Positions 7,842 to 32,082 of a stretch of DNA of 64,000 nucleotides are shown here, in pieces. The position numbers and the translations under genes are program-made. Origin of the DNA: Bacteroidaceae bacterium (GTDB taxonomy: Bacteria > Bacteroidota > Bacteroidia > Bacteroidales > Bacteroidaceae). The DNA lies in assembly GCA_017552435.1 (NCBI GenBank), contig JAFZPZ010000015.1, positions 43,552-107,551 on the forward strand. The letters are read 5' to 3'. The notes under the pieces were generated by a model, which saw nothing but the letters and a program-made list of their open reading frames with translations, was not told the origin of the DNA and searched no databases. The number at the start of each line of letters is the position of its first letter. Position 1 is the stretch's first letter.

Positions 7842-7886
7842 AAATGAAAAATCAAAAAATAAAAGTGAATAATTAAAAAATGAAAG

Positions 7887-10195: not shown

Positions 10196-12145
10196 ATGTT
10201 TGATTGGTTCATCCATATTCTGCAGGATATGGGCAACACGCTTCGGTTGCCTGTAACGTTCATCATCATCGAGTTCATTGGCACCTTTGCCTTTGCTATC
10301 TCGGGTGTACGTCTGTCCAGTACCAAGCAATTCGACATCTTCGGAGCTTGGATCGTGGGTATGGCCACAGCTATCGGAGGCGGAACGATTCGCGACCTCA
10401 TGCTGGGTCTCAATCCCTTCTGGATGACAAACGGAAGCTATTTCATCTGCTGTGCTCTGGCGGTGCTGGCTGTCAGTATGTTCGGCAAATACATCATTCA
10501 TCACAACTACACCTGGTTCATCTTCGATACCATTGGACTTGCTCTCTTCAATGTTATCGGTATCGAGAAGACATTGGCTTTGGGTCATCCTTTCTGGGTG
10601 GCCATTACGATGGGTGCTGTTACAGGTGCTGGCGGCGGTATCATCCGCGATGTCCTGATGAATGATGTTCCGCTCATCTTCCGGAGCGAGATCTATGCCC
10701 TTGCCTGTGTGGCGGGAGGCGTGGCATACGTCGTTTGTCTCGGGCTTGGTCTCAGTGTGGAAATCAGCGCCCTGCTCAGCGCCTTTAGCGTCATCCTCAT
10801 ACGCATCCTGGCAGTCAAGTTCCATTGGCAACTGCCTGTGCTGAAAGGTGAAGAAGCCTCCTCCGACTCCTCCAAGGGAGGAGGGAATATCCTCCGCGTT
10901 ATTATCTTCTTCCTGCTCTTTCAATGTTCAATGTTCAATGTTCAATGTTCAATGGCTCACGCCCAGACTCAGCAAATCTTCGCGGGAAATGTGCGAACAC
11001 TCACTCTGACCGTTGACGACGACCCGACTTTGCCGCCCTATATGCCCCTCGGAGGCAGGCAGCACATCGACATCGAATGGGACGAGATGAGCCACGACTA
11101 CAAACGCTACATCTATCACATAGACCATTGCGACTGGGATTGGCAACCTACGGACGGTATCTTCGAGAGCGACTTTCTGGAAGGACTCAACGACCAGCTC
11201 ATCGAGGACTTCGAGAAGAGTTTCAATACGATGCAGATTTATACGCACTATCGTCTGCGTATCCCCAACAAAGAACTCCGTCTCCGCCTGAGCGGCAATT
11301 ATCGTCTCCGCATCTACGAGGAAGATGCCGACAGGGACGAAGACCCTCCTGTGCTCGAAGCCCGCTTCTGCATCTATGAGAAGGCGGCAGGCATCATTAC
11401 GCAGCTGAACAGCAATACCGACATCGATTTCAACAGCCGTCACCAGCAGATGACGCTCTCCGTCGGTTTTGGCTCGCTTTCTGTCTTCGACCCGCAGCGC
11501 GAACTCAAGGTCATCGTGATGCAGAACCGCCGCTGGGACACTCGTATAGAGAATCTCGTGCCCAATGTCCGGAAAGCTACTGGGATAGAGTTCACTCACA
11601 ACCGTCAGCTCATCTTCCCGGGAGGCAACGAGTACCATCGCTTCGAAATCCTCGATGTGCATCGCACGGCAACCGGAGTGGACCGCATCGAATGGTTCGA
11701 GCCATACTATCATGCTACGCTCTTTGCAGCTCAACCCGACAGAGCCTATAGCTATTCCGAGGACCAGAACGGTGTCTTTGTCGTGCGTAGTGCTGATGAC
11801 ATAGACGATGCAACGACTGCCGAATATATCGTCGTTCACTTCTTCCTGAAAAGTCCCCGGCTTCCGGGCGGCGATGTCTATGTGAGCGGGCAGTGGTCGG
11901 GGCAGACCTTCAATCCCGATTGCCGCATGGAGTACGATGACATCAATCAGGAATATCATGCAGCCATCCTGTTGAAGCAGGGCTACTACAGCTACGAATA
12001 CATCCAGCAGGACGGACTTACGACGCGCACGATGGGTAGCTTCTTCGAGACCGAGAACGAATACCAGGTGTTGGTCTATTATCGCGGACAGGGAGCGCGC
12101 TATGACCGTCTGGCAGCTTACACCATCGTCCACAATGCGAGGTGA
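10196..12145 (+). CDS. In-frame fusion: TRIC/UPF0126 membrane channel plus DUF5103 (type IX secretion plug-like) protein
   Basis: 649 residues in one unbroken frame. Residues 1 to about 215 form the usual TRIC (UPF0126, YicG-like) channel with two repeated halves (TKQFDIFGAWIVGMATAIGG and GHPFWVAITMGAVTGAGGG), ending at AVKFHWQLPVLKG where relatives stop. A linker made of repeat DNA follows (EEASSDSSKGGGN), then a hydrophobic segment with heptamer-encoded residues leading to AHAQTQQ, which looks like the old signal peptide of the second protein. The rest matches DUF5103, an exported protein associated with type IX secretion. The fusion probably arose when repeats replaced the stop and start between two genes. 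The two halves normally act in different membranes, so whether the fusion is made and stays joined is doubtful. Confidence 0.75.
   Translation: MFDWFIHILQDMGNTLRLPVTFIIIEFIGTFAFAISGVRLSSTKQFDIFGAWIVGMATAIGGGTIRDLMLGLNPFWMTNGSYFICCALAVLAVSMFGKYIIHHNYTWFIFDTIGLALFNVIGIEKTLALGHPFWVAITMGAVTGAGGGIIRDVLMNDVPLIFRSEIYALACVAGGVAYVVCLGLGLSVEISALLSAFSVILIRILAVKFHWQLPVLKGEEASSDSSKGGGNILRVIIFFLLFQCSMFNVQCSMAHAQTQQIFAGNVRTLTLTVDDDPTLPPYMPLGGRQHIDIEWDEMSHDYKRYIYHIDHCDWDWQPTDGIFESDFLEGLNDQLIEDFEKSFNTMQIYTHYRLRIPNKELRLRLSGNYRLRIYEEDADRDEDPPVLEARFCIYEKAAGIITQLNSNTDIDFNSRHQQMTLSVGFGSLSVFDPQRELKVIVMQNRRWDTRIENLVPNVRKATGIEFTHNRQLIFPGGNEYHRFEILDVHRTATGVDRIEWFEPYYHATLFAAQPDRAYSYSEDQNGVFVVRSADDIDDATTAEYIVVHFFLKSPRLPGGDVYVSGQWSGQTFNPDCRMEYDDINQEYHAAILLKQGYYSYEYIQQDGLTTRTMGSFFETENEYQVLVYYRGQGARYDRLAAYTIVHNAR
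10856..10885 (+). repeat. GC-rich palindromic repeat, copy 3, inside the fusion linker
   Basis: GCCTCCTCCGACTCCTCC followed by AAGGGAGGAGGG: a diverged copy of the family, translated in frame as part of the linker between the TRIC and DUF5103 parts. Confidence 0.65.
10921..10955 (+). repeat. Heptamer array (TCAATGT x4 plus TCAATGG) inside a gene
   Basis: Four perfect TCAATGT units and a fifth with one change. It encodes part of the hydrophobic segment just before AHAQ. Loss or gain of one 7-bp unit would shift the frame and uncouple the two halves of the fused gene. Confidence 0.85.
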
Positions 12146-12146
12146 A

Positions 12147-12197
12147 GACCCCCTGACCCTTTATGGGGGAATTAAATAGTAAATAGTTAAATCGTAA
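12147..12197 (+). repeat. Composite repeat: palindrome copy 4 plus heptamer array
   Basis: AGACCCCCTGACCCTTTATG with GGGGGA, then AAATAGT/TAAATAG-type heptamers running to the start codon of the transporter gene. No promoter is visible in this 50-nt space. Confidence 0.7.
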
Positions 12198-13448
12198 ATG
12201 AGAAAGCCTCTTCTTTGGATTCCGAGCCTCTATCTCGGTGAATCGTTGCCCTACGCGGCTGTGATGCTGATGTCCCTTGTCCTCTATCAGGAGATGGGTC
12301 TGAGCGATACGCAGATTACGCTCTATACAGGATGGCTCGGGCTTCCATGGGTCATCAAACCGTTGTGGAGTCCTATCGTCGATGGCATCAGGACGAAGCG
12401 ATGGTGGATTCTCGCCATGCAGCTGACAATCGGAGCATCGTTGGCTCTGCTTGCTTTCACATTACCTACAAACTTCTGGTTGCAGTGCTCGCTGGCTCTC
12501 TTCATGCTTGTTGCTTTCGGAAGTGCCACACACGACATCTGTGCCGATGGTTTCTACATTCTTGGCCTTGAGAACAAGGAGCAGGAACTCTATGTCGGTC
12601 TCCGCAACACCTTCTACCGTATTGGAATGGTGCTGGGGCAGGGAGGCCTGGTCATGCTGGCTGGCTTGTTGCAGGAGAGTGGAGCCTCCATACCCATTTC
12701 CTGGAGTGTTACCTTCCTGGCTGTTGCAGGCCTGATGTTAATGCTTTTTGCCTATCATTGGCGGATGCTGCCAACGCCCTCCTCTGATTCTCCCAAAGGG
12801 GAGAAACTTTCTGTCTTCGAGGACTTTTTTCTTACCCTTAAGGTCTTCCTGACGAAGCCGCACCTCATAACCGCCTTGCTTTTTATCCTGCTTTTCCGCT
12901 TGCCGGAGGGATTGCTCACCAAGATTATACCGCTTTTCCTGAAGCGGACAGTAGAAGAGGGTGGCTTGGCTCTGACGGATGTGCAGTATGGTTTTGTTTA
13001 TGGCACATTGGGTGTAATCGGACTGCTTGGTGGCGGCATCGTGGGCGGTTGGCTTGTCTCGAGATACAGCCTCAGACGTATGCTTTGGCCGCTTGTGCTC
13101 TGCATCACCTTGCCGGACATCGTCTATGTCTATCTCAGCATTTATGGAAGCGAGAGCCTGTCGCTCATCGCCGCCTGTGTCTTTATCGAGCAGGTCGGCT
13201 ACGGCTTGGGCTTCACGGCATACACCCTCTACCTTGTCAGCTTCTCGCACGGCGAACGCAGTACCTCCGTATTCTCAATTTGTACTGCTTTCCAGTATCT
13301 TGGCGGTGTGATGCTGCCAGGAATGGTGAGCGGCTGGATATCGGACAGCTTGGGCTACAGCCAGTTCTTTATTGCCGTGATGGGCTTCTGCCTCGTTACC
13401 TTCGCTGTTACAGCAATGTTGAAACTGCCGGAAGAAAAGACCCCCTAA
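12198..13448 (+). CDS. AmpG-like MFS transporter
   Basis: 416 residues with about 12 hydrophobic segments. The start MRKPLLWIPSLYLGESLPYA, then GLPWVIKPLWSPIVD and SATHDICADGFYI, are typical of the AmpG/PAT branch of the major facilitator superfamily, which imports muropeptides or acetyl-CoA. The next gene is a DUF1460 amidase-like protein, a known partner in Bacteroidetes cell-wall recycling, so import of anhydro-muropeptides is the best guess. A copy of the GC-rich palindrome (12777-12809) is translated in frame as TPSSDSPKGEKLS in the central cytoplasmic loop between helices 6 and 7, where an insert is tolerable. Confidence 0.82.
   Translation: MRKPLLWIPSLYLGESLPYAAVMLMSLVLYQEMGLSDTQITLYTGWLGLPWVIKPLWSPIVDGIRTKRWWILAMQLTIGASLALLAFTLPTNFWLQCSLALFMLVAFGSATHDICADGFYILGLENKEQELYVGLRNTFYRIGMVLGQGGLVMLAGLLQESGASIPISWSVTFLAVAGLMLMLFAYHWRMLPTPSSDSPKGEKLSVFEDFFLTLKVFLTKPHLITALLFILLFRLPEGLLTKIIPLFLKRTVEEGGLALTDVQYGFVYGTLGVIGLLGGGIVGGWLVSRYSLRRMLWPLVLCITLPDIVYVYLSIYGSESLSLIAACVFIEQVGYGLGFTAYTLYLVSFSHGERSTSVFSICTAFQYLGGVMLPGMVSGWISDSLGYSQFFIAVMGFCLVTFAVTAMLKLPEEKTP
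12777..12809 (+). repeat. GC-rich palindromic repeat, copy 5, inside the MFS gene
   Basis: CCCTCCTCTGATTCTCCC, then AAA, then GGGGAGA: third arm, spacer, then the palindrome. It falls in the loop-coding part of the transporter gene and keeps the frame open. Confidence 0.65.
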
Positions 13449-13463
13449 CCCCCTTTAGGGGCG
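13438..13463 (+). repeat. GC-rich palindromic repeat, copy 6
   Basis: AGACCCCCTAACCCCCTTTA followed by GGGG. It overlaps the end of the transporter gene, supplying its last proline codon and stop. The space to 13554 otherwise holds a short GC-rich stretch with no recognised signal. Confidence 0.75.
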
Positions 13464-13554
13464 ACTGGGGACTTTAGAGGAGCCACTGATGTGGCTACGG
13501 CCCCACAAAGTGGAGCAAGTTCCCACTTGCGACGGAGGAAAAAAATATTTCAAG

Positions 13555-14439
13555 ATGAACAGATTTAAGATTATACTATTCTTGCTCCTTGCATCATGCT
13601 TCTTTCTCCCCCTAAAGGGGGGTGGGGGGTCTCCTGTCTCCTATTCCCGCGATGACAGCCTCCGCGTCGTTGAACTTTTAGAAAAAGGCTCAAAAGAACT
13701 CCCCCTAAAGGGGGATGGGGGGTCTCTTACTCTCTTTTATGCCCGTCAGCTCATGGATCTCCCTTATGTGGGGCAGACTTTGGAGATTAACGGCAAGGAG
13801 GAGCATCTGGCCATCAACCTGCATAGCCTTGACTGCACGACGCTTGTCGAGAATGTCTGTGCTTTGGCACTCACCACGAGTCACGGCAGCAAGAGCTGGA
13901 AGGACTTCCTCCGTTGGCTGCGGATGCTGCGCTACGATGATGGGAAGATCAACGGCTACAGCAGTCGCAACCATTACTTCAGTCAGTGGATTCAGTCGGG
14001 AACGCGACAAGGAATGGTTCGCGAGATAGAGGCCGACCGCAGCATCACCGTCCCCATGAAACTCAGCCTGACCTATATGAGCAGTCATCCCAACTCCTAT
14101 CCTCTGCTCAAGGTGGATATGGAGGAGCGCAAACTCATTGCCGAGATGGAGAAACGAGTATCGGGAGCCACCATCCGATACATACCGAAGGAACGGGTAG
14201 GGGATAGCCGCGAGGTGCTGAGTTGCATCCATGATGGCGACATCTTGGCCATTACTACTAACAAGGAGGGTCTCGACATCAGTCATGTCGGTCTTGCTGT
14301 TTGGGGAAACGACGGAAAGCTGCACCTGCTCAATGCCAGCAGCATCCACAAGAAAGTCGTGCTGGAGTCCATGACCTTGTATGAGTACATGCAGAAGCAT
14401 CCCTCTCAGACCGGCATCCGCGTCATCCGATTACTTTAA
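13555..14439 (+). CDS. DUF1460 protein, N-acetylmuramoyl-L-alanine amidase-like, with two repeat insertions
   Basis: 294 residues from the ATG at 13555 (MNRFKIILFLLLASCFF), which opens a signal peptide, possibly of a lipoprotein (LLASC). DUF1460 proteins have an NlpC/P60-like fold and act in peptidoglycan turnover. The probable catalytic Cys is in HSLDCTTLVENV and the His in DISHVGLAVWGNDG. Two copies of the GC-rich palindrome are read in frame, giving PLKGGGGS at the end of the signal peptide and PLKGDGGS some 30 residues later; both lie before the catalytic domain. It follows the AmpG-like gene and precedes uvrA by 2 nt. The true mature N-terminus is hard to place because of the insertions. 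Confidence 0.8.
   Translation: MNRFKIILFLLLASCFFLPLKGGGGSPVSYSRDDSLRVVELLEKGSKELPLKGDGGSLTLFYARQLMDLPYVGQTLEINGKEEHLAINLHSLDCTTLVENVCALALTTSHGSKSWKDFLRWLRMLRYDDGKINGYSSRNHYFSQWIQSGTRQGMVREIEADRSITVPMKLSLTYMSSHPNSYPLLKVDMEERKLIAEMEKRVSGATIRYIPKERVGDSREVLSCIHDGDILAITTNKEGLDISHVGLAVWGNDGKLHLLNASSIHKKVVLESMTLYEYMQKHPSQTGIRVIRLL
13605..13632 (+). repeat. GC-rich palindromic repeat, copy 7, in the DUF1460 gene
   Basis: TCTCCCCCTAAAGGGGGG, then T, then GGGGGGTCT. Translated as SPLKGGGGS-like residues directly after the signal peptide core. Confidence 0.8.
13698..13726 (+). repeat. GC-rich palindromic repeat, copy 8, in the DUF1460 gene
   Basis: ACTCCCCCTAAAGGGGGA, then TGGGGGGTCT. It is nearly identical to the copy 93 bp upstream, in the same orientation and reading frame, encoding LPLKGDGGSL. 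Confidence 0.8.
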
Positions 14440-14441
14440 TT

Positions 14442-17318
14442 ATGGAGAACAGCATTCAAATAAAGGGGGCACGGGTTAATAACCTGAAGAATATCAGCCT
14501 GGAGATACCGCGTGGAAAGCTGGTGGTTATCACAGGCCTGAGCGGCAGCGGGAAAAGCAGTTTAGCTTTCGATACGCTTTATGCCGAAGGACAGCGCCGA
14601 TACGTGGAGAGCCTTAGTGCTTACGCCCGTCAGTTCCTGGGGCGCATGAATAAACCGGAATGCGACTACATCAAGGGCCTCCCGCCTGCCATCGCCATTG
14701 AACAGAAGGTCTCGAGCCGTAATCCGCGTAGTACCGTCGGAACAAGCACGGAGATTTACGAGTATCTGCGTCTCCTTTTCGCCCGAGTCGGTCACACTTA
14801 TAGTCCAGTGAGTGGCAAGGAAGTGAAGCGCCATACAACGGAGGATGCTGTACAGTGTATGCTCTCCAAACCCCGTGGTACAAAGCTGATGGTGATGTGT
14901 CCCATCTGTTGTCCCGAGAACCGCACTCTCTACGAGCAACTGGAAATTTTCAGAAAGAGTGGATTCGCAAGACTTTTTGTTGATGGCGAAGTAATGCGCA
15001 TTGAAGATTTCTCCCCCTCTGGGGATTTGAAGGGGGACTGCTTCTTGGTCATCGACCGTTTGATTGCTGGGAATGATCGTGATACGATAGCCCGTTTGGT
15101 CGATTCGTGCGAGACGGCTTTCTACGAGGGGCACGGAACAGCTATCTTGCAGTTCGTGTCAGACGGCGAGCGTCATATCTTCAGTACGCGCTTCGAGGCT
15201 GACGGCATCACCTTTGAGGAACCAACGGACAAACTTTTTGCCTTTAACTCGCCCATCGGGGCTTGTCCCGAGTGCGAAGGTTTCGGAAAGGTCATTGGTA
15301 TCGACGAACAGATGGTTATTCCAAACACCGCGCTGAGCGTATATGATGGCGCTGTGGTCTGCTGGCGCGGAGAGAAGATGATTGAGTGGAAAGAATGGTT
15401 CATCCGCATGAATTCCGAGCGCGGCTTCCCCATCTTCAAACCCTACTTCGAACTGACTCAGCAGGAGAAAGACTGGCTCTGGCACGGTGTCCCATCGGAT
15501 TGCGTCCGGATGAGGAACGAAAGGTTGGGAGGAGCGGATGTCCTTGTGCCAGAGAAATGGCAGATTATGCCCGAGGAACGTGAGTGGGGCTTACTCTCCA
15601 TTGATGCCTTTTTCGAGTACTTACGTCAGGGACAATACAAGATACAGAACCGCGTGATGTTGGCGCGCTATCGCGGCAAGACGGTCTGTCCCAAATGCCA
15701 CGGCAACCGGCTCCGCCCAGAAGCGGAATACGTGAAGGTGGGTGGTCGTAGTATCACCGAGCTGGTGAACATTTCGGTCAGCGAACTGCTGTCCTGGGTG
15801 GAGAACCTCCGTCTCAGCGAGCATGAGGAGAAAATAGCCAAGCGCGTCCTTACCGAAATCAAGAATAGGCTGCAATACCTGATAGATGTCGGTCTTGGCT
15901 ACCTGACGCTGAACCGCCCTTCCAATAGCCTCTCCGGCGGCGAGAGCCAGCGTATCAACCTTGCCACATCCTTGGGCAGCAGCCTTGTGGGCAGTCTCTA
16001 TATCCTAGACGAACCGAGCATAGGTCTCCACAGTCGCGATACAGAGCGTCTCATCAAGGTACTGAAGCAATTGCGCGACCTGGGCAACACCGTCATTGTC
16101 GTGGAGCACGATGAGGAGATAATCCGCTCTGCTGACTGGCTCATCGACATCGGTCCTGAGGCTGGTCGCTTGGGTGGTGAGGTCGTGTATAATGGACCTG
16201 CAGAGGGCATCAGCTCGGCAGGAGAAACCTCCCATACGCTCTGCTTCCTTACCGGCAGCGAAGTAATTCCTTTGCCCATAAGCCGTCGTCGTTCCAGTAG
16301 CTATATCGAGGTGAAAGGCGCCAGGGCTAACAACCTGAAGGGCATCGATGTGCGTTTTCCATTGGGCGTGATGACCTGTGTGACTGGTGTCAGCGGCAGC
16401 GGTAAGAGTAGCCTGGTTCGTGACATATTCTATAATGCCATGAAGCGCCAACTGGATGAGATATCTGATCGTCCTGGCGAATTCTTGCGTCTCGAAGGCG
16501 ACACCAGCATGGTGCAGGCCATCGAGTTTGTTGACCAGAACCCCATCGGTAAGAGTACGCGTTCGAACCCTGTCACCTATGTCAAAGCCTGGGACGAGAT
16601 AAGGAAACTTTTTGCAGCCCAACCGCTTTCGCAGCAGATGGGCTATACTGCCGCCTACTTCAGTTTCAATACCGACGGAGGCCGCTGCGATGAATGCAAA
16701 GGCGAAGGCACTGTCACCATCGAAATGCAATTCATGGCGGATTTGGTATTGCCTTGTGAGAGTTGCCACGGGCAGCGCTTCAAGTCGGAAATTCTGGATG
16801 TGCGTTTCCATGGGAAGAATGTCTGCGATGTGCTCGACATGACCATCAACCAAGCCATCGAGTTCTTTACGGACCATGGGCAGAAGCGCATCATCGCACT
16901 ACTAAAGCCCTTGCAGGATGTGGGATTGGGCTATATCAAACTGGGTCAGTCCTCATCCACACTCTCCGGCGGTGAGAATCAACGTGTCAAGCTTGCCTAT
17001 TACCTGGGCATGGAGAAACATCAACCTACCATCTTCATCTTTGATGAGCCAACTACCGGCCTGCACTTCCATGATATCCAGAAATTGCTCGCGGCCTTCG
17101 ACGCCCTTATTGCCCGAGGCCATACCATCATCATCATCGAGCACAACCTGGAGATCATCAAATGTGCCGACCATATCATCGACCTTGGTCCTGAAGGTGG
17201 CGATGCTGGCGGTAATATCCTGGCGGCAGGTACTCCGGAAGAGGTCGCAGAATGCAGCGATAGCTATACAGCCAGATTCTTGCGCGAGAAACTTTTGGCT
17301 GCAGCAAGGGAATCATAA
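14442..17318 (+). CDS. uvrA: Excinuclease ABC subunit A
   Basis: 958 residues. The DNA-damage recognition ATPase of nucleotide excision repair. Two ABC modules are visible: Walker [14 protein letters not shown] near the N-terminus with signature [12 protein letters not shown], and Walker [14 protein letters not shown] with signature [12 protein letters not shown]. Zinc-binding pairs [17 protein letters not shown] and CDECKGEG...CESCHGQRF are present. A copy of the GC-rich palindrome at 15009-15040 adds [10 protein letters not shown] in frame within the domain inserted in the first ABC module, where family members vary. The gene ends 6 bp inside the convergent gene on the other strand. Confidence 0.96.
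15009..15040 (+). repeat. GC-rich palindromic repeat, copy 9, inside uvrA
   Basis: TTCTCCCCCTCTGGGGA, then TTTGAAGGGGGACTG. Translated in frame as SPSGDLKGD in a surface loop of UvrA. Confidence 0.7.
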
Positions 17319-18964: not shown

Positions 18965-20455
18965 GTGTTCACATTTTGCATTGCATTGGTCTGTCTGGTA
19001 CTCGGTTATTTCGCTTATGGCAGTTTTGTTGAGAGAGTGTTCGGTGTAGACCCGAACCGAAAAACGCCATGTTATACGAAGCAGGACGGATCCGACTACA
19101 TCCCCATGCCAACGTGGAAGGTCTATACCGTTCAGTTCCTCAATATCGCAGGCACTGGCCCTATATTCGGTGCGATGATGGGTGTACTCTACGGACCTGC
19201 AGCTTTTCTGTGGATTGTGTTTGGTTGCATCTTGGGTGGAGCCATGCACGACTATATGGCCGGTATGATAAGCATCCGACGCGATGGAATGGGACTTCCC
19301 GAAATCATTGGTGACGAGCTTGGTAGCGTTTGTCGTTTGGTGATGCGTGTTGTTACGCTTGTACTGATGATTTGCGTTGGTGCATCATTCGTGCTGATTC
19401 CTGCCGGATTGATGGATCAATTGACCCAACGGATGTTCGATATTGCCGATACCAACCTGATATGGACGGTTGTAATACTCGTCTTTTACCTGGCCGTTAC
19501 GGTCTTCTCTATCAATAAGGTTATCGGGACCATCTATCCTGTCTTTGGTGCGGCATTGCTCATCATGGCGGTGCTCATCGGTTTCGGAATCTTTACGCAC
19601 GAAGGCAACATCCCCAGCTTTGCTGAAGCTTTCAGCGATCATTATCCTGTCAGCTACACGCCTCTGTTCCCAGGACTCTTCATCACGATAGCCTGTGGAG
19701 CCGTAAGCGGTTTCCATGCGACGCAGAGTCCCATGATGGCGCGTTGCATTAAGAACGAGAAGTACGGTCTTCGCTGTTTTTATGGTGCGATGGTAACCGA
19801 GGGCGTGGTAGCCCTCATTTGGGCTGCTGCCGCAATGAAGTTCGTCAATATGTTGGACATCGCAGGTGCTACTCCATACGAAAAACTCTACAATGCCATG
19901 ACGGCCTGCGGAACAGTGAAGATGAATCCAGGCCTGTTGGTTGAGCGGATGTGCAACGATTGGTTGGGTAATGCCGGACTTGTTCTGGCAGTGCTGGGCA
20001 TCGTTGCAGCTCCGATGAGTACTGGCGGCAGTGCTTTCCGTGCAGCCCGTATGATAGTGGCCGACTTCAGCCATTACGACCAGAAGTCTATCGTGAAGCG
20101 TCTTGTGCTCACAACTCCGCTGTTTGCTGTTGCCATTGCGATGTTGAACGTCAGCAGTTTCAAGGTGCTATGGCTCTATGTCTCTTGGTTCAATCAGGTC
20201 CTGGCTACCTTCACCTTCTTCACTATCGCCCATTTCTTGAAGCATCGCACCGACGGCAAGGGCATCTTGCCGGGCTGGTCGTGGCTGATTGCCTATTTCC
20301 CCGCCGTATTCATGTGTGCCGTAAGTGCCTGCTTCATCCTGATAGACAAAGAGAATGGCTTTGGCCTGGATACTACAATAGGTTATGCCATTGGCGGTAC
20401 CTTTACCGCAATCGTGGCGGTTTGGTTCTTGATAAAGAACATAAGAGGAATTTAA
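18965..20455 (+). CDS. cstA: CstA-family carbon starvation protein / pyruvate-type transporter, copy 1
   Basis: 496 residues with many transmembrane helices. The GTG start at 18965 is supported by its neighbour, which begins MITFTLSLVCLLLGY against MFTFCIALVCLVLGY here. CstA proteins take up pyruvate or peptides during starvation. Conserved segments: PCYTKQDGSDYIPMPTWKV, QFLNIAGTGPIFGA, GGAMHDYMAGMISIR, GAVSGFHATQSPMMARC and APMSTGGSAFRAARM. It probably shares an operon with the second copy 37 bp downstream, reached from the promoter at 18904. Confidence 0.9.
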   Translation: MFTFCIALVCLVLGYFAYGSFVERVFGVDPNRKTPCYTKQDGSDYIPMPTWKVYTVQFLNIAGTGPIFGAMMGVLYGPAAFLWIVFGCILGGAMHDYMAGMISIRRDGMGLPEIIGDELGSVCRLVMRVVTLVLMICVGASFVLIPAGLMDQLTQRMFDIADTNLIWTVVILVFYLAVTVFSINKVIGTIYPVFGAALLIMAVLIGFGIFTHEGNIPSFAEAFSDHYPVSYTPLFPGLFITIACGAVSGFHATQSPMMARCIKNEKYGLRCFYGAMVTEGVVALIWAAAAMKFVNMLDIAGATPYEKLYNAMTACGTVKMNPGLLVERMCNDWLGNAGLVLAVLGIVAAPMSTGGSAFRAARMIVADFSHYDQKSIVKRLVLTTPLFAVAIAMLNVSSFKVLWLYVSWFNQVLATFTFFTIAHFLKHRTDGKGILPGWSWLIAYFPAVFMCAVSACFILIDKENGFGLDTTIGYAIGGTFTAIVAVWFLIKNIRGI

Positions 20456-20490
20456 ATGGTAAATAGTAAATGATTAAATAGTAAATGTCT
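20453..20490 (+). repeat. Heptamer array (TAAATAG-type) between the cstA copies
   Basis: AAATGGT/AAATAGT/AAATGAT units fill almost the entire gap between the two cstA genes, starting at the stop codon of the first. Confidence 0.7.
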
Positions 20491-20492
20491 CG

Positions 20493-21950
20493 ATGATAAC
20501 ATTCACACTCTCCCTCGTTTGCCTGTTGCTGGGCTATCTGCTTTATGGTGCTGTCGTAGAGCATGTCATCAAGCCCAGTAGTACAACCAAAATGCCCTGC
20601 TATGAAAAGCGGGACGGCGTTGACTTTATGCCCATGCCTGCTTGGCGTGTGTTTCTCATCCAGTTCCTCAATATTGCAGGGACAGGCCCAATTTTCGGGG
20701 CCATCATGGGCATCCTGTTTGGTCCTGCTGCTTATTTGTGGATCGTACTCGGCTGCATCTTTGCTGGAGCCGTTCACGACTACCTTTGCGGTATGATATG
20801 TATCAGGCAAGGTGGCGTCTCCTTACCCGAAATTATTGGAAACGAATTGGGCGATGGGATGCGCCTGGTAATGCGAGTCGGCGCATTGGTACTTTTGGTG
20901 ATGGTGGGTGCTGTCTTCGTTGTGACACCAGCTTCGTTGCTCGACAATATGACACCCGACAAGGGCTGGTTCTTCTCAAACGGTTTCTGGTTGACGCTCA
21001 TCTTCCTTTACTTCATCTTCGCCACATTGTTGCCCATCGACAAACTTATTGGCAGGGTTTATCCCGTGTTCGGTCTTGCCTTGTTGCTGATGGCAATAGG
21101 AATCTGTTGGGGTATCTATACACAGGAGGGATGGATGCCGGAACTGACGGATGCTCCATTTGTGACGCATCACCCGAAGGGGCTGCCTATCTTCCCAATG
21201 CTTTGCATTACCATTGCTTGCGGTGCAATAAGCGGTTTTCATGGAACTCAGAGTCCGCTTATGGCTCGGTGTCTGACAAACGAACGCCTGGGCCGTCCTA
21301 TCTTCTATGGTGCAATGATAACCGAAGGCGTTGTGGCTCTCATTTGGGCTGCTGCTGCTGTGAAGTTCGCCAGCACCTTGCCAGGTGAAGAGGGCGCTAC
21401 GGCTTACGAGAAGCTTGCTGCCCTGGGAAATCCTGCTATTGTGGTCAAGGAAATCAGTACTGGTTGGATGGGTGCTGTCGGTGCTGTGCTTGCCATCCTT
21501 GGAGTCGTTGCGGCACCTATCACCAGCGGTGACACAGCTTTCCGTAGTGCCCGACTCATTGTTGCCGATTTCCTACATATTAGCCAGAAGAGCATCATCA
21601 AGCGTCTTATGTTATGTCTGCCGCTTTTTGCCATTACAACAGGCTTGTTCTTCATTGATTTCACTGTCCTCTGGCGCTATTTTGCCTGGACAAACCAGAC
21701 GCTAGCCTGCATCATGCTTTGGGCGGCTACCGTATGGCTTGCCCGTAAGAGGCTCTTCTACTGGGTGGCCCTTATTCCAGCGCTCTTTATGACGGTGGTG
21801 TGCACCAGCTATATATTCATTGCACCCGAAGGCTTCGGTCTTTCGATCGAGATAGGTCTCTCTGCCGGTCTGGCCCTGATGATTGTGCTGGCATTTCTAT
21901 TTAGAGTAAAGAATAAAGCATTAAGAAAGAAAAATTATAGATTAAAATAA
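20493..21950 (+). CDS. cstA: CstA-family transporter, copy 2
   Basis: 485 residues, clearly paralogous to the upstream copy along its whole length (PCYEKRDGVDFMPMPAWRV, QFLNIAGTGPIFGA, GAISGFHGTQSPLMARC, APITSGDTAFRSARL). Divergence is large enough that the pair is old rather than a recent duplication. The two may have different substrates or may form one assembly. The C-terminus ends with a basic tail (RVKNKALRKKNYRLK) of AT-rich composition. Confidence 0.9.
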   Translation: MITFTLSLVCLLLGYLLYGAVVEHVIKPSSTTKMPCYEKRDGVDFMPMPAWRVFLIQFLNIAGTGPIFGAIMGILFGPAAYLWIVLGCIFAGAVHDYLCGMICIRQGGVSLPEIIGNELGDGMRLVMRVGALVLLVMVGAVFVVTPASLLDNMTPDKGWFFSNGFWLTLIFLYFIFATLLPIDKLIGRVYPVFGLALLLMAIGICWGIYTQEGWMPELTDAPFVTHHPKGLPIFPMLCITIACGAISGFHGTQSPLMARCLTNERLGRPIFYGAMITEGVVALIWAAAAVKFASTLPGEEGATAYEKLAALGNPAIVVKEISTGWMGAVGAVLAILGVVAAPITSGDTAFRSARLIVADFLHISQKSIIKRLMLCLPLFAITTGLFFIDFTVLWRYFAWTNQTLACIMLWAATVWLARKRLFYWVALIPALFMTVVCTSYIFIAPEGFGLSIEIGLSAGLALMIVLAFLFRVKNKALRKKNYRLK

Positions 21951-23666: not shown

Positions 23667-24563
23667 TTAATTATTGTCTCTTTCTTCTTCGCGCTTAGCG
23701 ATGTAGGCGTCAAGGCGTTCGATGCATGACTTCGTCACAGCAATGCGGCCTGTGCGAACGAACTGCAGCACGCATCCCAGAGCGTCGAGCTGTGTGAAGA
23801 GTTCAATCACATCTTTTGTGATGCCTGTATTCTCCACGATGGTGTAAGTGGGATTCACCTCCACGATGCGGGCATCATAGCGGCGCACGATGCAGGAAAT
23901 GTCCTGATTTGCAAGCACCATCGGTGTGGACAGCTTCAGCAGCGATGTCTCTAGGATGAATATCTCGTCGTCCACAAAGCAGTTGGCTTGCAGCACATCG
24001 ATCTTTTTCTCAATCTGTTTGGTCAGCATCTCTGCCATTTCCTGCTTGCAATAGCAGGTGATGGTATATTTGTGAACGCCGGGGGTCGATGAGGCACACA
24101 CGTTGAGACTCTCGATGTTCACCTGGCGACGGGTAAAGACGGCTGTTATCTGATTCAGGATACCGGCGAAGTTCTCCGAGTAGATGATGAGGGTGTAGAG
24201 TGTGAGGCCGTCATGACTGAGGAGTGCACCTTCGCGAGCTGGCATTGCAGGACGGGCCACAGCAGTTCTGCTGAAGGTCTCTTTCTGACTTCCTTGAGCA
24301 GTATCTTGTGCTAAGGTAGCCCGACGCTGGCGGGCGAGGTTCTTCTCGAAGCTGTCGCGTTCTATGGCAGCTGCAGCAAGGACCGCATCGTTAAAGCCCT
24401 GCATCTCTTTGGCCTGTTCCAGTTCGTCACACTTTCCACAGGTATTGCAATCACCGCATTCAGCGGCACCGTACCGGCCCCCCACCGGCTCCCCCGAGGG
24501 GGAGGGGCTGATTCCCTCTAAATCTCCCAGAGGGGAGACTTTTTTATCGTTTTTCTTGTTCAT
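23667..24563 (-). CDS. ilvN: Acetolactate synthase small subunit with an unusual N-terminal extension
   Basis: 298 residues. The C-terminal part (from about 120, TLYTLIIYSENFAGILNQIT and FTRRQVNIESLNVC) is the ACT-domain regulatory subunit that binds valine, followed by the usual second domain (AIVEVNPTYTIVEN-like to RTGRIAVTKSC). About 115 extra residues precede it. The first 30 or so derive from GC-rich palindrome DNA (KVSPLGDLEGISPSPSGEP). Then comes a cysteine cluster, ECGDCNTCGKC (CxxCxxCxxC), and an Ala/Arg-rich helix-like stretch. Internal ATGs exist (MQGFNDAV, MPAREG), so a shorter product is possible. The ATG at 24563 overlaps the end of the DUF559 gene by 20 bp. Confidence 0.85.
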   Translation of the reverse strand: MNKKNDKKVSPLGDLEGISPSPSGEPVGGRYGAAECGDCNTCGKCDELEQAKEMQGFNDAVLAAAAIERDSFEKNLARQRRATLAQDTAQGSQKETFSRTAVARPAMPAREGALLSHDGLTLYTLIIYSENFAGILNQITAVFTRRQVNIESLNVCASSTPGVHKYTITCYCKQEMAEMLTKQIEKKIDVLQANCFVDDEIFILETSLLKLSTPMVLANQDISCIVRRYDARIVEVNPTYTIVENTGITKDVIELFTQLDALGCVLQFVRTGRIAVTKSCIERLDAYIAKREEERDNN

Positions 24564-24968
24564 CTTTTATTCTTTCTAATACATTCTCTAAATTAGAAAA
24601 GATTTCCTCATTAGTAAATCGAATTACCCTCCAACCGTTTCTCTCTAACCATTCTGTTCGTTCTTCGTCGCTTATCTTTTGCTCTGGCAAAGAGTGGTAA
24701 AGGCCATCAATCTCTATTATCAGCTTATTAGTTACACATGCAAAGTCTGCAATATATTCTCCTATTATGTGTTGATGTCTATATCTTACTCCCATTTGGC
24801 TTGCTCTCAAGAAGTTCCAAAATAATGATTCTGCTTCTGTTGGAATAGCTCGTTGCTTTGCAGCAAACTCCTTGAGCAGCCGATACGTCATCGGGTCTGC
24901 CGTCTGGTAAGAGTATCCCATTTTTTTATTTTGTTTTTCTCTCACCCTCGGGGGAGTTGGAGGGGGGC
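24477..24968 (-). mobile_element. Putative miniature mobile unit: DUF559 gene between inverted copies of the GC-rich palindrome
   Basis: The left end 24477-24500 and the right end 24945-24968 are inverted repeats matching at 21 of 24 bases (shared core CTCCCCCGAGGG and a C6/G6 run at the outer edge). Between them lies one gene, a DUF559 protein. The left arm is longer, with a second palindrome at about 24517-24540. The unit splits ilvB from ilvN; the right arm encodes the last residues of IlvB (PPSNSPEGE) and the left arm the first residues of IlvN. The inverted repeats and gene are seen directly; mobility is inferred. A target duplication was not identified. Confidence 0.6.
24544..24921 (-). 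CDS. DUF559 endonuclease-like protein (PD-(D/E)XK, Vsr-related fold)
   Basis: 125 residues from the ATG at 24921 (MGYSYQTADPMTYRLL). DUF559 proteins share the PD-(D/E)XK nuclease fold with very-short-patch repair nucleases. The pattern is complete: TEAESLFWNFLRASQMGVRYRHQHIIG, then IADFACVTNKLIIEIDG, supplying Asp and Glu-x-Asp in the expected places, and the closing GWRVIRFTNEEIFSNLENVL. Its base composition is poorer in G+C than the ilv genes on either side. It sits 4 nt after ilvB and overlaps ilvN, so it is co-transcribed with the operon. No role in isoleucine-valine synthesis is expected. Confidence 0.85.
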   Translation of the reverse strand: MGYSYQTADPMTYRLLKEFAAKQRAIPTEAESLFWNFLRASQMGVRYRHQHIIGEYIADFACVTNKLIIEIDGLYHSLPEQKISDEERTEWLERNGWRVIRFTNEEIFSNLENVLERIKDEQEKR

Positions 24969-26662
24969 AGTTCCAAAAGCATTTCATCCACATTCGCACC
25001 TGGAGGTGTCATGGGGAGTATGTTATCCTCTTCCTTCACAGCGCATTGCAGGAGGTAGGGTCCTTCGGTCGTGAGCATCTCGCGGATGGCGGCATCCAAG
25101 TCCTTGCGGTCCACTACCGTGCGGCAGGGAATGTCGTATCCCTCTGCAATCTTCTCGTAGTCGGGATTGAGCATCGGGGTGAACGAGTAGCGCTTGTTGA
25201 AGAACATGTACTGCCACTGACGCACATTGCCGAGGTAGTTGTTGTTCAGCAGAATCATCTTCACGGGAATGCGGTTCTCCATGATGGTGCCCAGTTCCTG
25301 GATGGTCATCTGGAAGCCTCCGTCGCCGCAGAACATGCAGACGGTCCTGTCGGGAGCACCATAGCAGGCTCCCATCGCTGCTGGAATGCCAAAGCCCATC
25401 GTGCCGCAACCACCGCTGGTGACGACAGAGCGAGGCTTCGTGAACTTGAAATAGCGGCATCCGAACATCTGGTTCTGTCCGACATCGGTCACGAGAATAG
25501 CCTCGTTGCCCGATGCCTCGCTCACTTTGCGAATCACCTCAGCCATCAGCAGCGGACCTTCTTTGGGATGCAGGGCTGCATCGATGACTTTTGTGTATTC
25601 CTTCTCTTCGTAGGGTTTGAAGCCTTCTATCCATGCTTTGTGAGTGGTCTTGTCAACGAGTTTCGTTACTTCGGGAAGCGTCTGTTTGCAGTTGCCAAGC
25701 ACAGAGAGCGTAGGCTTTACGTTCTTTCCAATTTCCGAAGGATCTATCTCGAAGTGAATGACCTTTGCCTGCTTGGCGTAGGTCTTCAGGTTACCCGTCA
25801 CACGGTCGTCGAAACGCATTCCGACGGCAATGAGCAGGTCACACTGGTTGGTCATAACATTCGGTGCCAGGTTACCGTGCATACCGAGCATTCCCATATT
25901 GAGGGGATGATCGGATGGTGCGGCAGAGAGACCAAGTATAGTCGATGCGAAGGGAATCTGTGCCTTCTCGCAAAGAGTAAGCAACTCCTTGTTGGCCTGA
26001 GCCAGTTCTACGCCCTGGCCTACCAGCATGAAGGGCTTCACGCTTTCGTTAATCATGCGGGCAGCCTTCTCGATGGAACCTTCCTCCGGTTGCGGATTGG
26101 GGTTGTAGCTGCGGATGAAATCGACCTTCTGCGGAGCATATTCTATCATTGCCGTCTGTGCATTCTTGGCGAAGTCGAGCACCACAGGCCCCGGACGTCC
26201 GCTCTTGGCGATAAAGAAGGCACGAGCCACAGCCCAGGGGATGTCCTCTGCACGACGAATCTGATAGTTCCACTTCGTGATGGGTTGCGTCACACCGACC
26301 ACATCCACCTCCTGAAAAGCGTCTGTACCCAGCATGGCAGCACCTACCTGACCGCAGATGACCACCATCGGAGTGGAGTCGATCATGGCGTCGGCAACGC
26401 CTGTGATGGTGTTCATTGCACCTGGGCCGCTCGTCACGATGGCGCAGCCCACTCGTCCGCTCACTCGGGCATAGCCCTGAGCAGCATGAACGGCTGCCTG
26501 TTCGTGGCGAACCAAAATGTGATGCAGCGTCTTCTTGTGGTCGTAGAGGGCATCGTAGGTGGGCATGATGGCACCGCCAGGGTAACCAAAGAGCACATCC
26601 ACGCCCTCATGTTCGAGGCTCCGCATCAAAGCCTCTGCACCGGATATCTTATTTGAATTCAT
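24926..26662 (-). CDS. ilvB: Acetolactate synthase large subunit
   Basis: 578 residues. Thiamine-diphosphate and FAD-dependent enzyme making acetolactate or acetohydroxybutyrate. Seen: the activating Glu region HILVRHEQAAVHAAQGYAR, the middle FAD-binding domain, and the ThDP motif GDGGFQMTIQELGTIMENRIPVKMILLNNN. The very C-terminus, LELPPSNSPEGERKTK, is encoded by the right arm of the DUF559 unit, so the native tail has probably been replaced. Second gene of the operon; heptamer repeats (ATTCATA type) fill the 45-bp gap to ilvD. Confidence 0.95.
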   Translation of the reverse strand: MNSNKISGAEALMRSLEHEGVDVLFGYPGGAIMPTYDALYDHKKTLHHILVRHEQAAVHAAQGYARVSGRVGCAIVTSGPGAMNTITGVADAMIDSTPMVVICGQVGAAMLGTDAFQEVDVVGVTQPITKWNYQIRRAEDIPWAVARAFFIAKSGRPGPVVLDFAKNAQTAMIEYAPQKVDFIRSYNPNPQPEEGSIEKAARMINESVKPFMLVGQGVELAQANKELLTLCEKAQIPFASTILGLSAAPSDHPLNMGMLGMHGNLAPNVMTNQCDLLIAVGMRFDDRVTGNLKTYAKQAKVIHFEIDPSEIGKNVKPTLSVLGNCKQTLPEVTKLVDKTTHKAWIEGFKPYEEKEYTKVIDAALHPKEGPLLMAEVIRKVSEASGNEAILVTDVGQNQMFGCRYFKFTKPRSVVTSGGCGTMGFGIPAAMGACYGAPDRTVCMFCGDGGFQMTIQELGTIMENRIPVKMILLNNNYLGNVRQWQYMFFNKRYSFTPMLNPDYEKIAEGYDIPCRTVVDRKDLDAAIREMLTTEGPYLLQCAVKEEDNILPMTPPGANVDEMLLELPPSNSPEGERKTK

Positions 26663-29916: not shown

Positions 29917-32082
29917 ATGAATAAATTCAAAATTCAAAATAATAAGGCTGTTGTATGGCGACAGTTTGCCCACAAGGGCTATAGTGCTTTTGCCAGCCTT
30001 CATCGCCAGATACGTATCGGTGTCCTTAGCATTGCTACGCTAACTGTTGCCGCTGCAGCTCAGGCACAGGGAGCTACCATAACTGGTTGTCTCCCCTTTG
30101 GGGGAGATATAGAGGGGGCTTCTTCCTCGGGTGAGTTGGATGAGGACCATGACTTAGCGGAGCTGACTGTGAGTGGCACGATGGCTCCGCTTTCACAGTT
30201 GCAGGCGGCACGAATAGTCTGTGTGCTCACTCGCCAGGAAATTGAACAGGCGGCAGCGCAAAGCGTCAATGATCTCTTGAAATTGGTCACCGGTGTGGAT
30301 GTCTGGCAACGTGGTGGCTTTGGTATTCAGACGGACATCAGCATCGATGGCGGTACATTCGACCAGGTTACGCTGCTGCTCAATGGTATCGATATTGGTA
30401 ATCCCCAAACAGGACATTTGTCAGCAGACTTCCCTGTCAGCATTTGCGATATAGAACGTATCGAGGTGCTCGAGGGAGCAGCGAGTCGTGTGTATGGCGG
30501 ACAAAGTTTCGGTGGTGCGATAAATATTGTCACGAGACATGACCGGGAACAAAGCATAGAACTTGCTGGCAGAGGAGGTTCCTTTGGGACTGCTGAGGGC
30601 GAAGCACGATTGTCTTTTGCGCTAAAACGCTTCTCTAACCGCATCAGTGGAGGTGGCGGCAGGAGTGATGGCGGAACGCTCAACAGTGGGTGGCAGAAGG
30701 GACAGCTCTACTATCAGGGGGATTACGAGGATGATGCGTTGCGCCTTGATTGGCAGTTCGGTTTTTCGAAGAAGAGCTATGGAGCCAATACCTTTTATAG
30801 TGCCAATTACCCCAATCAGTACGAGCGTAACCAGCGTCTCATGACCAGCATCAGCGCAGAGACAAAGGGCCGTTTTCATTTCACACCCCAAGTTTTCTGG
30901 AACCGGTCTTGGGACAACTTCGAGCTGATACATGACTCTTCATTTGGCGAGAATTTCCACCGTACTGATGTCTATGGCCTCAAAGCCGGTGGACATTTTA
31001 ATTGGCGCTTGGGCAAAACTGCTGTCTCTGCTCTCATGAGACACGAAGGCATCCTCAGTACCAACCTCGGACGCGACTTGGAACCAGAGCAATATGTTGC
31101 CATTAATGGTCAATGGTCAATGGATAATGGTCAATGCTATTACACCCGCAGTGACGACCGCATAACCCTTTCATTCACTCTCGAACACAATATTCTATTG
31201 CAGCATTGGACCGTTTCTGCGGGCCTGATGGCAAGCATGACGTCCAGCATAGACCATCGTTTTCGCTTCTATCCTGGCATCGATATCGCTTACCGCCCTT
31301 CTTCAAATTGGAAGGTGCTGTTCTCCTACAACAAAGGCTTCCGCTTGCCCACGTTTACGGAACTCTACTACAAGAGTCCGACGCATGAAGGGAACAGGGA
31401 CCTGAAGCCCGAACACAATCATTCCTTCTCTATCGGTGCAGAATACAGATGGGGTGGGGTAGAGTCCAGTGTTCGTGGATTTTACCATCGTGGTACACAG
31501 ATGATAGACTGGGTGATGTATGCGCCGGATGATATCTATCATACTGCTGCTTTCAATCTCGATAATGTGGGAGTTCAGGTTCAGGGGAAGATTTTTCTGT
31601 CCGAGTTTTTCGGGCGTGATACCTGGGTGCGTTCGTTCAGTGCTGGCTATACTTTTATTCATCAGAACAAGCATGATGCAGATGGTGTAGTAAAGAGCAA
31701 TGTGGCAATGGAGTATCTGCGGCATAAGTTTGTAGCGAGCCTCTCGCATCGTATTGTCGGTCACCTTTCAATGTCATGGGATTTCCGTTGGCAGGATCGT
31801 GTAGGCAGTTATCTGAGTGGTGGCGAACTGATCCCTTATCATCCTTATGCAATGCTCGATGCTAAAATCCTGTGGTCAAACCCCTTCTCTCACCCATCAC
31901 CCCTCAACTCTAGATCCTCGACTCATACCTCATACCTCATACCTTTCACCTCTTACATCTCCGAGATTTATCTCCAGGCAACGAATATTACCAACCATCA
32001 CTACTATGACCTCGGTTCGGTCCCTCAACCCGGCATCTGGCTCATGGCTGGAGCAAAGTTCAATTTAAACTTTAAACTTTAA
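29917..32082 (+). CDS. TonB-dependent outer-membrane receptor, BtuB-like
   Basis: 721 residues. The long N-terminus (VVWRQFAHKGYSAFASLHRQIRIGVLSIATL, then AAAAQAQ) is the Bacteroidetes leader often found on cobalamin-type receptors. A plug domain (about 85-195; VNDLLKLVTGVDVWQRGGFG, LLLNGIDIGNPQ, RIEVLEGAASRVYGGQSFGGAINIVT) precedes a beta-barrel ending in WLMAGAKFNLNFKL. Repeats are embedded in frame: the GC-rich palindrome as CLPFGGDIEGASSSG before the plug (30086-30122), heptamers as NGQWSMDNGQC (31108-31139), TCATACC units near 31915-31950, and TTTAAAC units at the C-terminus. Substrate assignment to B12-like compounds is a guess from the leader and size. The start at 29917 lies in repeat DNA and could be 29947-30000 instead. 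Confidence 0.85.
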   Translation: MNKFKIQNNKAVVWRQFAHKGYSAFASLHRQIRIGVLSIATLTVAAAAQAQGATITGCLPFGGDIEGASSSGELDEDHDLAELTVSGTMAPLSQLQAARIVCVLTRQEIEQAAAQSVNDLLKLVTGVDVWQRGGFGIQTDISIDGGTFDQVTLLLNGIDIGNPQTGHLSADFPVSICDIERIEVLEGAASRVYGGQSFGGAINIVTRHDREQSIELAGRGGSFGTAEGEARLSFALKRFSNRISGGGGRSDGGTLNSGWQKGQLYYQGDYEDDALRLDWQFGFSKKSYGANTFYSANYPNQYERNQRLMTSISAETKGRFHFTPQVFWNRSWDNFELIHDSSFGENFHRTDVYGLKAGGHFNWRLGKTAVSALMRHEGILSTNLGRDLEPEQYVAINGQWSMDNGQCYYTRSDDRITLSFTLEHNILLQHWTVSAGLMASMTSSIDHRFRFYPGIDIAYRPSSNWKVLFSYNKGFRLPTFTELYYKSPTHEGNRDLKPEHNHSFSIGAEYRWGGVESSVRGFYHRGTQMIDWVMYAPDDIYHTAAFNLDNVGVQVQGKIFLSEFFGRDTWVRSFSAGYTFIHQNKHDADGVVKSNVAMEYLRHKFVASLSHRIVGHLSMSWDFRWQDRVGSYLSGGELIPYHPYAMLDAKILWSNPFSHPSPLNSRSSTHTSYLIPFTSYISEIYLQATNITNHHYYDLGSVPQPGIWLMAGAKFNLNFKL
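30086..30122 (+). repeat. GC-rich palindromic repeat, copy in the TonB receptor gene
   Basis: TCTCCCCTTTGGGGGAGATA, then TAGAGGGGGCTTC: the clearest example of the consensus. It is translated in frame upstream of the plug domain. Confidence 0.85.
31108..31139 (+). repeat. Heptamer array (ATGGTCA-type) in the TonB receptor gene
   Basis: AATGGTC/AATGGTC/AATGGAT/AATGGTC-like units, encoding NGQWSMDNGQC in an extracellular-loop position of the barrel. Confidence 0.75.
31915..31960 (+). repeat. Heptamer array (TCATACC-type) in the TonB receptor gene
   Basis: TCATACC repeated three times with a degenerate continuation (TTTCACCTCTTAC), encoding THTSYLIPFTSYIS near the end of the barrel. Confidence 0.7.

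Follow-up and report, generated by a model that had tools for sequence, protein, structure and literature searches.

A gene for a small DUF559 nuclease stands between two inverted repeats, here called arms, at the junction of ilvB and ilvN in a 64,000-nt stretch of a Bacteroidaceae genome (assembly GCA_017552435.1, contig JAFZPZ010000015.1, positions 43,552 to 107,551; hereafter the window). Our analysis favours, at a probability of roughly 0.7, the reading of this arrangement as a minimal mobile element of ~0.5 kb, composed of the nuclease gene and its two arms, with DUF559 as the nuclease of the element. The evidence lies in the anatomy of the unit, its presence or absence at orthologous sites, the relation between arm density and the number of DUF559 genes per genome, and the conserved active site of the enzyme. 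The association of DUF559 with arms is real and general and, within the open full-text literature searched, it is undescribed as a system.

The element in the window

The genome harbouring the window comprises 3.5 Mb in 129 contigs, and its relatives suggest a Prevotella-like bacterium. The DUF559 gene is an open reading frame (ORF) of 125 codons at 24544–24921 on the minus strand, located between ilvB and ilvN as the preliminary description had stated, and its product is identified as a PD-(D/E)XK, Vsr/EDxHD-like nuclease by the ORF itself, a Pfam match (PF04480, E 7e-31 with the longer 151-aa reading), a structure-profile match and the catalytic residues. Only the DUF559 and MTES_1575 models match the protein of the element, which contains no known transposase. 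The left terminal arm (24941–24968, minus strand; 5' in the sense of DUF559) consists of an outer C-run and a C/G hairpin, and the right terminal arm (24477–24504, minus strand; 3') is an inverted copy of it. The two arms, of 28 nt each, are 86% complementary, and the inverted 24-bp repeats with 21 matches described earlier form their core. A second right-type arm, located by eye, is nested within the right end on the ilvN side (24512–24539, minus strand).

Both host genes have absorbed the arms in frame, as had also been noted before. The C-terminus of IlvB (ilvB, 24926–26662, minus strand) is changed by the left arm, which is translated in its extension; the protein ends with DEMLLELPPSNSPEGERKTK, of which the terminal LPPSNSPEGERKTK is arm-derived, while IlvB of relatives ends with DEMLLEVN or EIN. 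Similarly, the right end is translated in the changed N-terminus of IlvN (ilvN, 23667–24563, minus strand). The ilvN start codon (24561–24563, minus strand) lies within the element and is overlapped by the DUF559 ORF, so that the new N-terminus, MNKKNDKKVSPLGDLEGISPSPSGEPVGGRYGAAECGDC, begins inside the DUF559 reading frame; its counterpart in, e.g., genome G027 is MKKNKNMGAAECGDC. The bracket score, which measures the match between inverted arms on the two sides of a position, was 16 for this locus with 250-nt flanks, and its maximum at 452 other positions of the window was 12. With 300-nt flanks, the maximum at 450 control positions was 13, so none of them reached 14.

Bracketing of DUF559 genes across Bacteroidota

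Matches to PF04480 were found in 100 of the 139 genomes of the genus, with up to 8 per genome, and in 138 of the 247 sampled Bacteroidota genomes. The loci analyzed were the best-scoring ones rather than a random sample, namely 34 from the genus (the 30 best and all 4 of another search), 80 of 568 from named GTDB genomes and 30 from the phylum sample. Left out were L004 (a partial match in a large protein, armless by eye) and 7 duplicates, and 134 of the 136 remaining loci were scorable, the other 2 being too close to a contig end. A locus was considered bracketed when inverted arms in its 300-nt flanks reached a score of at least 14.

The enrichment of palindromes at DUF559 flanks that the preliminary description had proposed to look for was evident: inverted arms bracket 98 of the 134 loci (28/32 in the genus, 52/73 in named GTDB genomes and 18/29 in the phylum sample), compared to 8 of the 1443 control positions taken from other parts of these loci. 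Three of these eight belong to one place in L027 and its duplicate L129 (~3965–4816 of L129), where an arm pair ~800 nt apart and free of DUF559 is found near a gmk-fused DUF559. In the version with 250-nt flanks, the same score was reached by 102/144 loci, 0/452 window positions and 5/1583 locus positions. The length of the units was 418–741 bp, a range limited by the 300-nt search flanks, with a median of 519 bp. A stricter detector requiring a hairpin plus a run placed an arm within 300 nt at 112/134 loci, and on both sides at 88/134. The respective values at random positions were 12% and 0.4% in 400 kb of G090, which had the most repeats of all genomes counted, and 2% and 0 in the window. 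The bracketing pattern is family-wide and, as described below, cross-phylum, and it is thus wider than first proposed.

Arm pairs 250–900 nt apart were also collected from 201 sequences by a script with a score limit of 18, below which the unit of the window itself falls. Outside the loci selected for DUF559, two further pairs enclose a DUF559 gene (L328 and L334), and most of the others enclose ilvN between two mini-elements. The DUF559 units of L328 and L334 are near ilvN, beside ilvB–ilvN arm pairs, and the ilv operon appears to have been hit repeatedly.

Design of the arms

The stems of the arms vary between loci, with 47 distinct stems among the 90 right arms that could be parsed (of 98). 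Between the two arms belonging to a unit the median match score is 20, compared to 9 for arms of different units, and at 71 of the 134 loci (68 of them among the 98 bracketed) an arm matches its own partner better than all 40 sampled others. The order within an arm is a C-block, a loop, the complementary G-block, a short spacer and a second G-block that mirrors the previous one. The identity between the mirrored blocks 2 and 3 is 0.84, compared to 0.64 with a shuffled third block, and 48 of 90 arms are individually significant at p ≤ 0.05. The arms thus appear triplex-capable by design, their folding being predicted from the sequence.

This order is shared with a known family of repeats. The intrastrand triplex motif, as reported by Holder et al. 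(2015; PMC4666352), was counted in over 260 genomes; Escherichia coli MG1655 has 23 occurrences, five of them as inverted pairs. It has been tied to genome instability, and the motif of E. coli has been shown to fold into a triplex in vitro. According to the same source, mobility activities were never found around the E. coli motif sites, which are described as always intergenic, and the words DUF, endonuclease, YcjD and Bacteroid are absent from its main text. The TM/PIT/box C repeats and the arms have in common the C-block, G-block and mirror G-block order as well as the occurrence of inverted pairs; the difference is that the arms flank a nuclease gene and also occur in frame within genes. 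A GTAG tag was found in none of the outer tetramers of the 98 left arms, and GTAG or CTAC was present in, or at most 8 nt from, 19 of the 98, a count for which the foot of the arm was not fixed.

Empty, single-arm, arm-pair and filled sites

Of the 119 genus genomes positive for ilvB, 110 ilvB–ilvN junctions were read by a script and the arm classes were corrected by eye. Three junctions contained DUF559, 72 were classed as arm-free, 14 lacked a downstream anchor and 21 were flagged for arms. On inspection L061, L269 and L286 were judged false and L278 and L063 doubtful, and L062 was read as a filled pair missed among the 72, not all of which were inspected by eye. According to the corrected classes, ~18 junctions carry arms or arm pairs and no DUF559. 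Empty sites, which the preliminary description had proposed to look for at this junction, are thus present, and the same series was observed between etfA and acd, where 30 loci of 35 matches were read, 23 of them with both anchors: seven loci contain DUF559, one (G050) an arm pair, and nine are compact and arm-free, while G097 carries a single in-frame arm inside acd. In the linker of MetH, all 30 phylum-sample loci read (the best 30 of 211 positive genomes) are empty, with a plain linker of 36–42 residues, and the linker is filled at eight loci by eye and, among other matches, in G173, G212 and G374 by coordinates. The shorter forms are single arms and pairs whose arms are separated by ~40–100 nt. 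These comparisons show that single arms, arm pairs and DUF559 units all come and go at orthologous sites.

An alignment of 28 junctions provided further detail. In G026 and G047, compared to G014 and G038, an arm pair is located between the ilvB stop and the ilvN start of the host, which is intact beyond the right arm. In the clade of G036, G104, G089 and G021, an arm pair is accompanied by another ilvN start, MKSNKKDIK or MKSNNKGKK, while the nearest empty relatives G071, G123 and G033 start with MEEKKK or MEDKKK. Two independent arm insertions around the old ilvN start were also considered, since the stretch between the arms encodes many Lys residues, as the host sequence does. Given the differing starts in this clade and the intact host start in G026 and G047, the insertions of both clades are taken to be arm pairs, less certainly in the G036/G104/G089/G021 clade.

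The DUF559 copy at the ilvB–ilvN junction L056 (G093) is frameshifted close to the 5' end and its sister copy in G053 has an open frame, a case of decay in place. Between G000 and G053 the identity of DUF559 at this junction is 0.868, compared to 0.827 for ilvB, a difference that is undecisive on horizontal transfer.

Arm density and the number of DUF559 genes

The median repeat density was 5.8, 31.7, 32.9, 43.1, 72.8, and 86.4 per Mb in genomes with 0, 1, 2, 3, 4, and at least 5 DUF559 matches, respectively. Across the 139 genomes the correlation of arm density with DUF559 count was rho 0.70, and it persisted in phylogenetic contrasts based on the ilvB tree (108 tips; r 0.53, p 4e-9), which answers in the affirmative the question, raised earlier, whether genomes with DUF559 genes carry more palindromes. 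These densities include overlapping matches and the own arms of the DUF559 units, the latter being taken as a small part and left unsubtracted. In the genome of the window, 534 matches to the pattern CCCCN{1,5}CCCCN{2,16}GGGG were counted, compared to 25 for the backwards pattern, overlapping matches being multiply counted.

The three levels of organization, i.e., single repeats, inverted pairs and a repeat-flanked gene, are also those of repetitive extragenic palindromic (REP) repeats and REPINs moved by a REP-associated tyrosine transposase (RAYT; HUH, Y1), in which case DUF559 would be a chance neighbor. We consider this explanation improbable in the extreme. The genome of the window has no PF01797 match at E ≤ 0.001, and the 26 of 139 genomes with a strong PF01797 match (E ≤ 1e-15; RAYT and IS200 not separated) have no more arms than the others, the correlation of strong Y1 transposase matches with arm density being rho -0.02 (contrasts, r -0.03). 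Moreover, a constant GTAG tag is missing from the 98 left arms. RAYT as the mover was rejected on the absence of PF01797 from the genome of the window and the lack of correlation with Y1 transposases.

In-frame copies inside host proteins

At many loci the DUF559 frame continues through the arms into a host protein. In all eight cases tested with Pfam, DUF559 forms one continuous frame with MetH, IleS, RecG, ValS, LeuS, Gmk, IspF (YgbB) or UvrA, the gmk and ispF cases being DUF559 fusions. The MetH copies occupy the linker ahead of the B12 domain, and the arms are translated as linkers, e.g., PPSGAGGAG or SLPSGEVGGA. No intein domain was detected by Pfam in the eight fused proteins, and no intron was detected by Rfam over positions 7000–31000 of the window, no further intron search having been made. 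In a tree of DUF559, which is based on a short protein and has partly low support, the copies in RecG (4), etfA–acd (6) and HsdR (2) group into one clade apiece; the MetH, IleS, LeuS, ValS, CysN, and Gmk copies are not single clades. A DUF559 inserted in metH as in Flavobacterium was also found in L120 (G385), a record titled Candidatus Nitrotoga; the phylum sample drawn for it is identical to that of Bacteroidota, and the title and the genome seem at odds.

The scattered position of the MetH, IleS, LeuS, ValS, CysN, and Gmk copies in this tree suggests that their sites were repeatedly entered, and this is relevant to the main rival of the proposed element, namely homing. According to it, the arms are spread by other means, and DUF559, acting as a free-standing homing endonuclease, cuts existing arms and is copied into them by break repair, which would account for its position between arms. 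The second-best solved relative of DUF559 is a mobile intron protein (3r3p), the arms greatly outnumber the DUF559 genes, and DUF559-free arm pairs exist as possible acceptors. However, arm density follows the number of DUF559 genes, which a mere parasite need not cause, the empty sites are armless (30/30 read at MetH and nine compact etfA–acd sites), and the arms of a unit match each other and not other arms. Homing as the sole explanation is therefore unlikely, although it deserves to be taken seriously, and homing into existing arms may act alongside transposition.

The DUF559 enzyme

The profile of DUF559 matched four solved structures, the best being PDB 3hrl (E 1.5e-30) and the second-best 3r3p (E 4.8e-8), which is presumably I-Bth0305I; no Vsr structure was among the four. 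The residues E31, D59, E70, H76, and D85, which we take to be the EDxHD pattern, are conserved in 133 of the 133 aligned DUF559 copies, in-gene ones included. In addition, dN/dS was 0.07–0.12 in the 6 of 26 pairs with usable dS, and the enzyme thus appears to be under selection. The match to the Vsr model TIGR00632 was weak (E 0.06, 13.6 bits compared to a cut-off of 97.85). These matches qualify the label of a PD-(D/E)XK, Vsr-fold nuclease given in the preliminary description.

The placement of YcjD/DUF559 in the PD-(D/E)XK superfamily and the likeness of its profile to Vsr have been published (PMC1189080); the available passages of that paper connect the family with neither repeats nor mobility. 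Furthermore, the available passages of a Caulobacter study report that the DUF559 protein VsrA is required for the DNA-damage response of methylase-lacking cells (PMC12907096), a result that speaks for a nuclease active in vivo. In another explanation, DUF559 would be a host repair gene, i.e., a Vsr-like nuclease for mismatches or branched DNA, around which palindromes gather as terminators or by recombination. The Vsr-like role argued for VsrA (PMC12907096), the profile likeness of YcjD (PMC1189080) and the weak match to TIGR00632 are consistent with it. On the other hand, DUF559 is present or absent at orthologous junctions, occurs with up to eight matches per genus genome and stands in frame with unrelated proteins. 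In the window its neighbors are ilvB and ilvN, and no linked cytosine methyltransferase was found beside it. We regard the repair-gene explanation as very unlikely.

Proposed mechanism and its weighing

In the mechanism that we propose for the mobile element, DUF559 would recognize the hairpin or triplex folded by the arms on single-stranded DNA, either on the lagging strand or in an R-loop, and would cut at the base of the folded arm; DUF559 itself is thereby inferred to catalyze the movement. Host repair or replication would then link the strand, freed or copied, to another site, a step left to the host since no joining chemistry is known for DUF559. The shorter forms, arm pairs and single arms alike, would be non-autonomous derivatives moved in trans. 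The arms are readable as Pro/Gly-rich linkers, and inspection by eye shows several loci where the downstream gene starts between DUF559 and the right arm; the element could thus insert at the end of a gene, at an operon junction or in a protein linker and be tolerated without splicing. Transposition by hairpin nicking is preferred over homing because the empty sites of relatives hold no arm. Flank enrichment, empty sites and the dose relation are all in favor of the mobile unit suggested in the preliminary description. The kinship with 3r3p, a mobile intron protein, also speaks for mobility.

A number of observations weigh against this interpretation. Mobility of the unit is deduced from the comparison of sites, cutting of the arms by DUF559 is putative, no published account of arm cleavage by a DUF559 protein was encountered, and the authors of the VsrA study read that protein as a Vsr-type repair nuclease (PMC12907096, in the passages available). 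No target-site duplication is evident at the sites compared, among which close empty and filled pairs are few; the outer tetramers vary, and the exact ends of the element are not fixed. Eight control positions reach the score of 14, while 36 of the 134 loci fall below it, 21 of these being in-gene copies. Among the 36 in-gene copies, which were picked by eye, only 15 reach 14; the arms of in-gene copies are hence often degenerate, and such copies may be old and immobile. Two genomes, G016 and G023, are arm-rich with no DUF559 match, both being incomplete assemblies. Finally, in other phyla the detector finds no arm at the loci of N. gonorrhoeae, Sinorhizobium K101, Novosphingobium, and Geobacillus, although the first two have one by eye, and the two flanking arms of a Photobacterium locus say little, as 15 arms are found elsewhere in its 2.4 kb.

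Other phyla and E. coli ycjD

Twenty loci of other phyla were read from 52 plasmid-collection records with a DUF559 match. An arm was located within 300 nt at 16 of them, and on both sides at nine, compared to a background, in six 50-kb stretches, of 0–5% of positions for one arm and 0–0.6% for both sides. The armed loci include those of Azospirillum, Sinorhizobium meliloti, Sphingomonas, Deinococcus, and Pseudanabaena. In three Deinococcus records (L240, L413 and L415), the hpa (4-hydroxyphenylacetate) cluster holds armed DUF559 genes at differing junctions and on the opposite strand, and in a Pseudanabaena galeata plasmid (L416) a DUF559 with arms on both sides lies within one annotated 4.9-kb gene. 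In E. coli MG1655 the DUF559 gene ycjD is located between fabI and sapF, with a triplex-type motif 166 nt past its stop, and ycjD is present in 3365 of 5426 complete genomes. An efflux operon at fabI–sapF in lineages lacking ycjD has been described in the available part of a 2026 report (PMC12817139). This alternation was also seen in our records, with ycjD and the triplex-type motif in MG1655 (L411) and the efflux operon in the same place in strain SF-173 (L426).

With odds slightly better than even, the mover that the intrastrand-triplex (box C/PIT) repeats have been missing may be the DUF559 nuclease, in at least Bacteroidota, Pseudomonadota, Cyanobacteriota, and Deinococcota. Nucleases and repeats together would form a separate class of mobile elements, recognized at their ends by triplex or hairpin structure and not by sequence, and surviving in frame in essential proteins without splicing. 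A widespread orphan repeat family may thus have found its mover. The candidate enzyme is a small protein with conserved catalytic residues, and E. coli K-12 encodes it as ycjD, which makes the open question testable at the bench in a laboratory strain. The element also illustrates a way in which a selfish gene could reside in metH, ileS, valS, leuS, recG, gmk, and uvrA with no intein, its ends being translatable as linkers. Annotation may benefit as well, since an explanation is offered for DUF559 domains within unrelated proteins and for Pro/Gly-rich inserts.

Relation to known systems

A close parallel is provided by the REPtrons (available passages of PMC3733652; see also PMC3116915), which share with the DUF559 units the single repeats, the inverted pairs, the repeat-flanked nuclease gene and a copy number tied to the gene. 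They differ in the enzyme, which is of the PD-(D/E)XK/Vsr type here and HUH there, and the DUF559 units have neither a constant GTAG tag nor a link to Y1 transposases. In function the element resembles a REPtron built around a different enzyme, although it is not itself a REPtron. In the preliminary description it had been likened to REP elements and RAYT with a repair-type nuclease in place of the transposase.

The EDxHD homing endonucleases, e.g., I-Bth0305I (PMC3943268, in the part available), are comparable in the homology of the nuclease domain, residence inside genes and repeated entry into sites. In the units described here, however, no intein domain is present in the eight fused proteins, the terminal arms are inverted and several unrelated sites are occupied per genome. 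Insertion sequence (IS) elements and miniature inverted-repeat transposable elements (MITEs) resemble the units in their terminal inverted repeats and in the coexistence of longer gene-bearing and shorter gene-free forms, but the DUF559 element has no known transposase and no target duplication was seen at its sites. To our knowledge, no enzyme has been assigned to the Rickettsia palindromic elements (RPEs). These elements are likewise palindromic, in frame in protein genes and translated, and differ in being ~150 bp long (PMC10969869, in the passages available).

The earlier statement that no system of this kind had been described is upheld in that none was found in the open full-text literature searched, and it needs qualification in that the arms resemble the published triplex-type repeats (PMC4666352, as far as available). 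Among the open-literature papers mentioning DUF559, judged by title and the start of the abstract and with subscription papers mostly outside, none was on repeats.

Further arms in the window

The earlier observation that the same palindrome family is scattered over 7.8–30.1 kb agrees with our localization of arms from ~7816 to 30093, four of the arms in the window being found by the stricter hairpin-plus-run detector. Three arms (left, right and right, at 13441, 13608, and 13701) are gathered within less than 300 nt at 13435–13728 with no DUF559 between them, and represent an arm pair or a remnant. Single left-type arms are located on the plus strand at 9845–9869, at 12145–12169 and, in degenerate form, at 7816–7844, and single right-type arms, also on the plus strand, at 15011–15036 and 30093–30118. 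Past 30.2 kb the run listing of the window gives no arm, only a plain C-run at 38297.

An Rfam search of positions 7000–31000 of the window, up to E 1, returned a single match, to whalefall-1 (30087–30147, E 0.0014, 28 bits). It covers a right-type arm, and its score is below the gathering threshold (37); part of the Rfam motif may be this repeat. Elsewhere in the same genome (L370, 10560–11155), inverted arms 552 nt apart enclose no DUF559 and part of a 182-aa ORF. At 18965–21950 of the window, adjacent genes for membrane-protein-like products are ~70% alike in places, which points to a tandem duplication.

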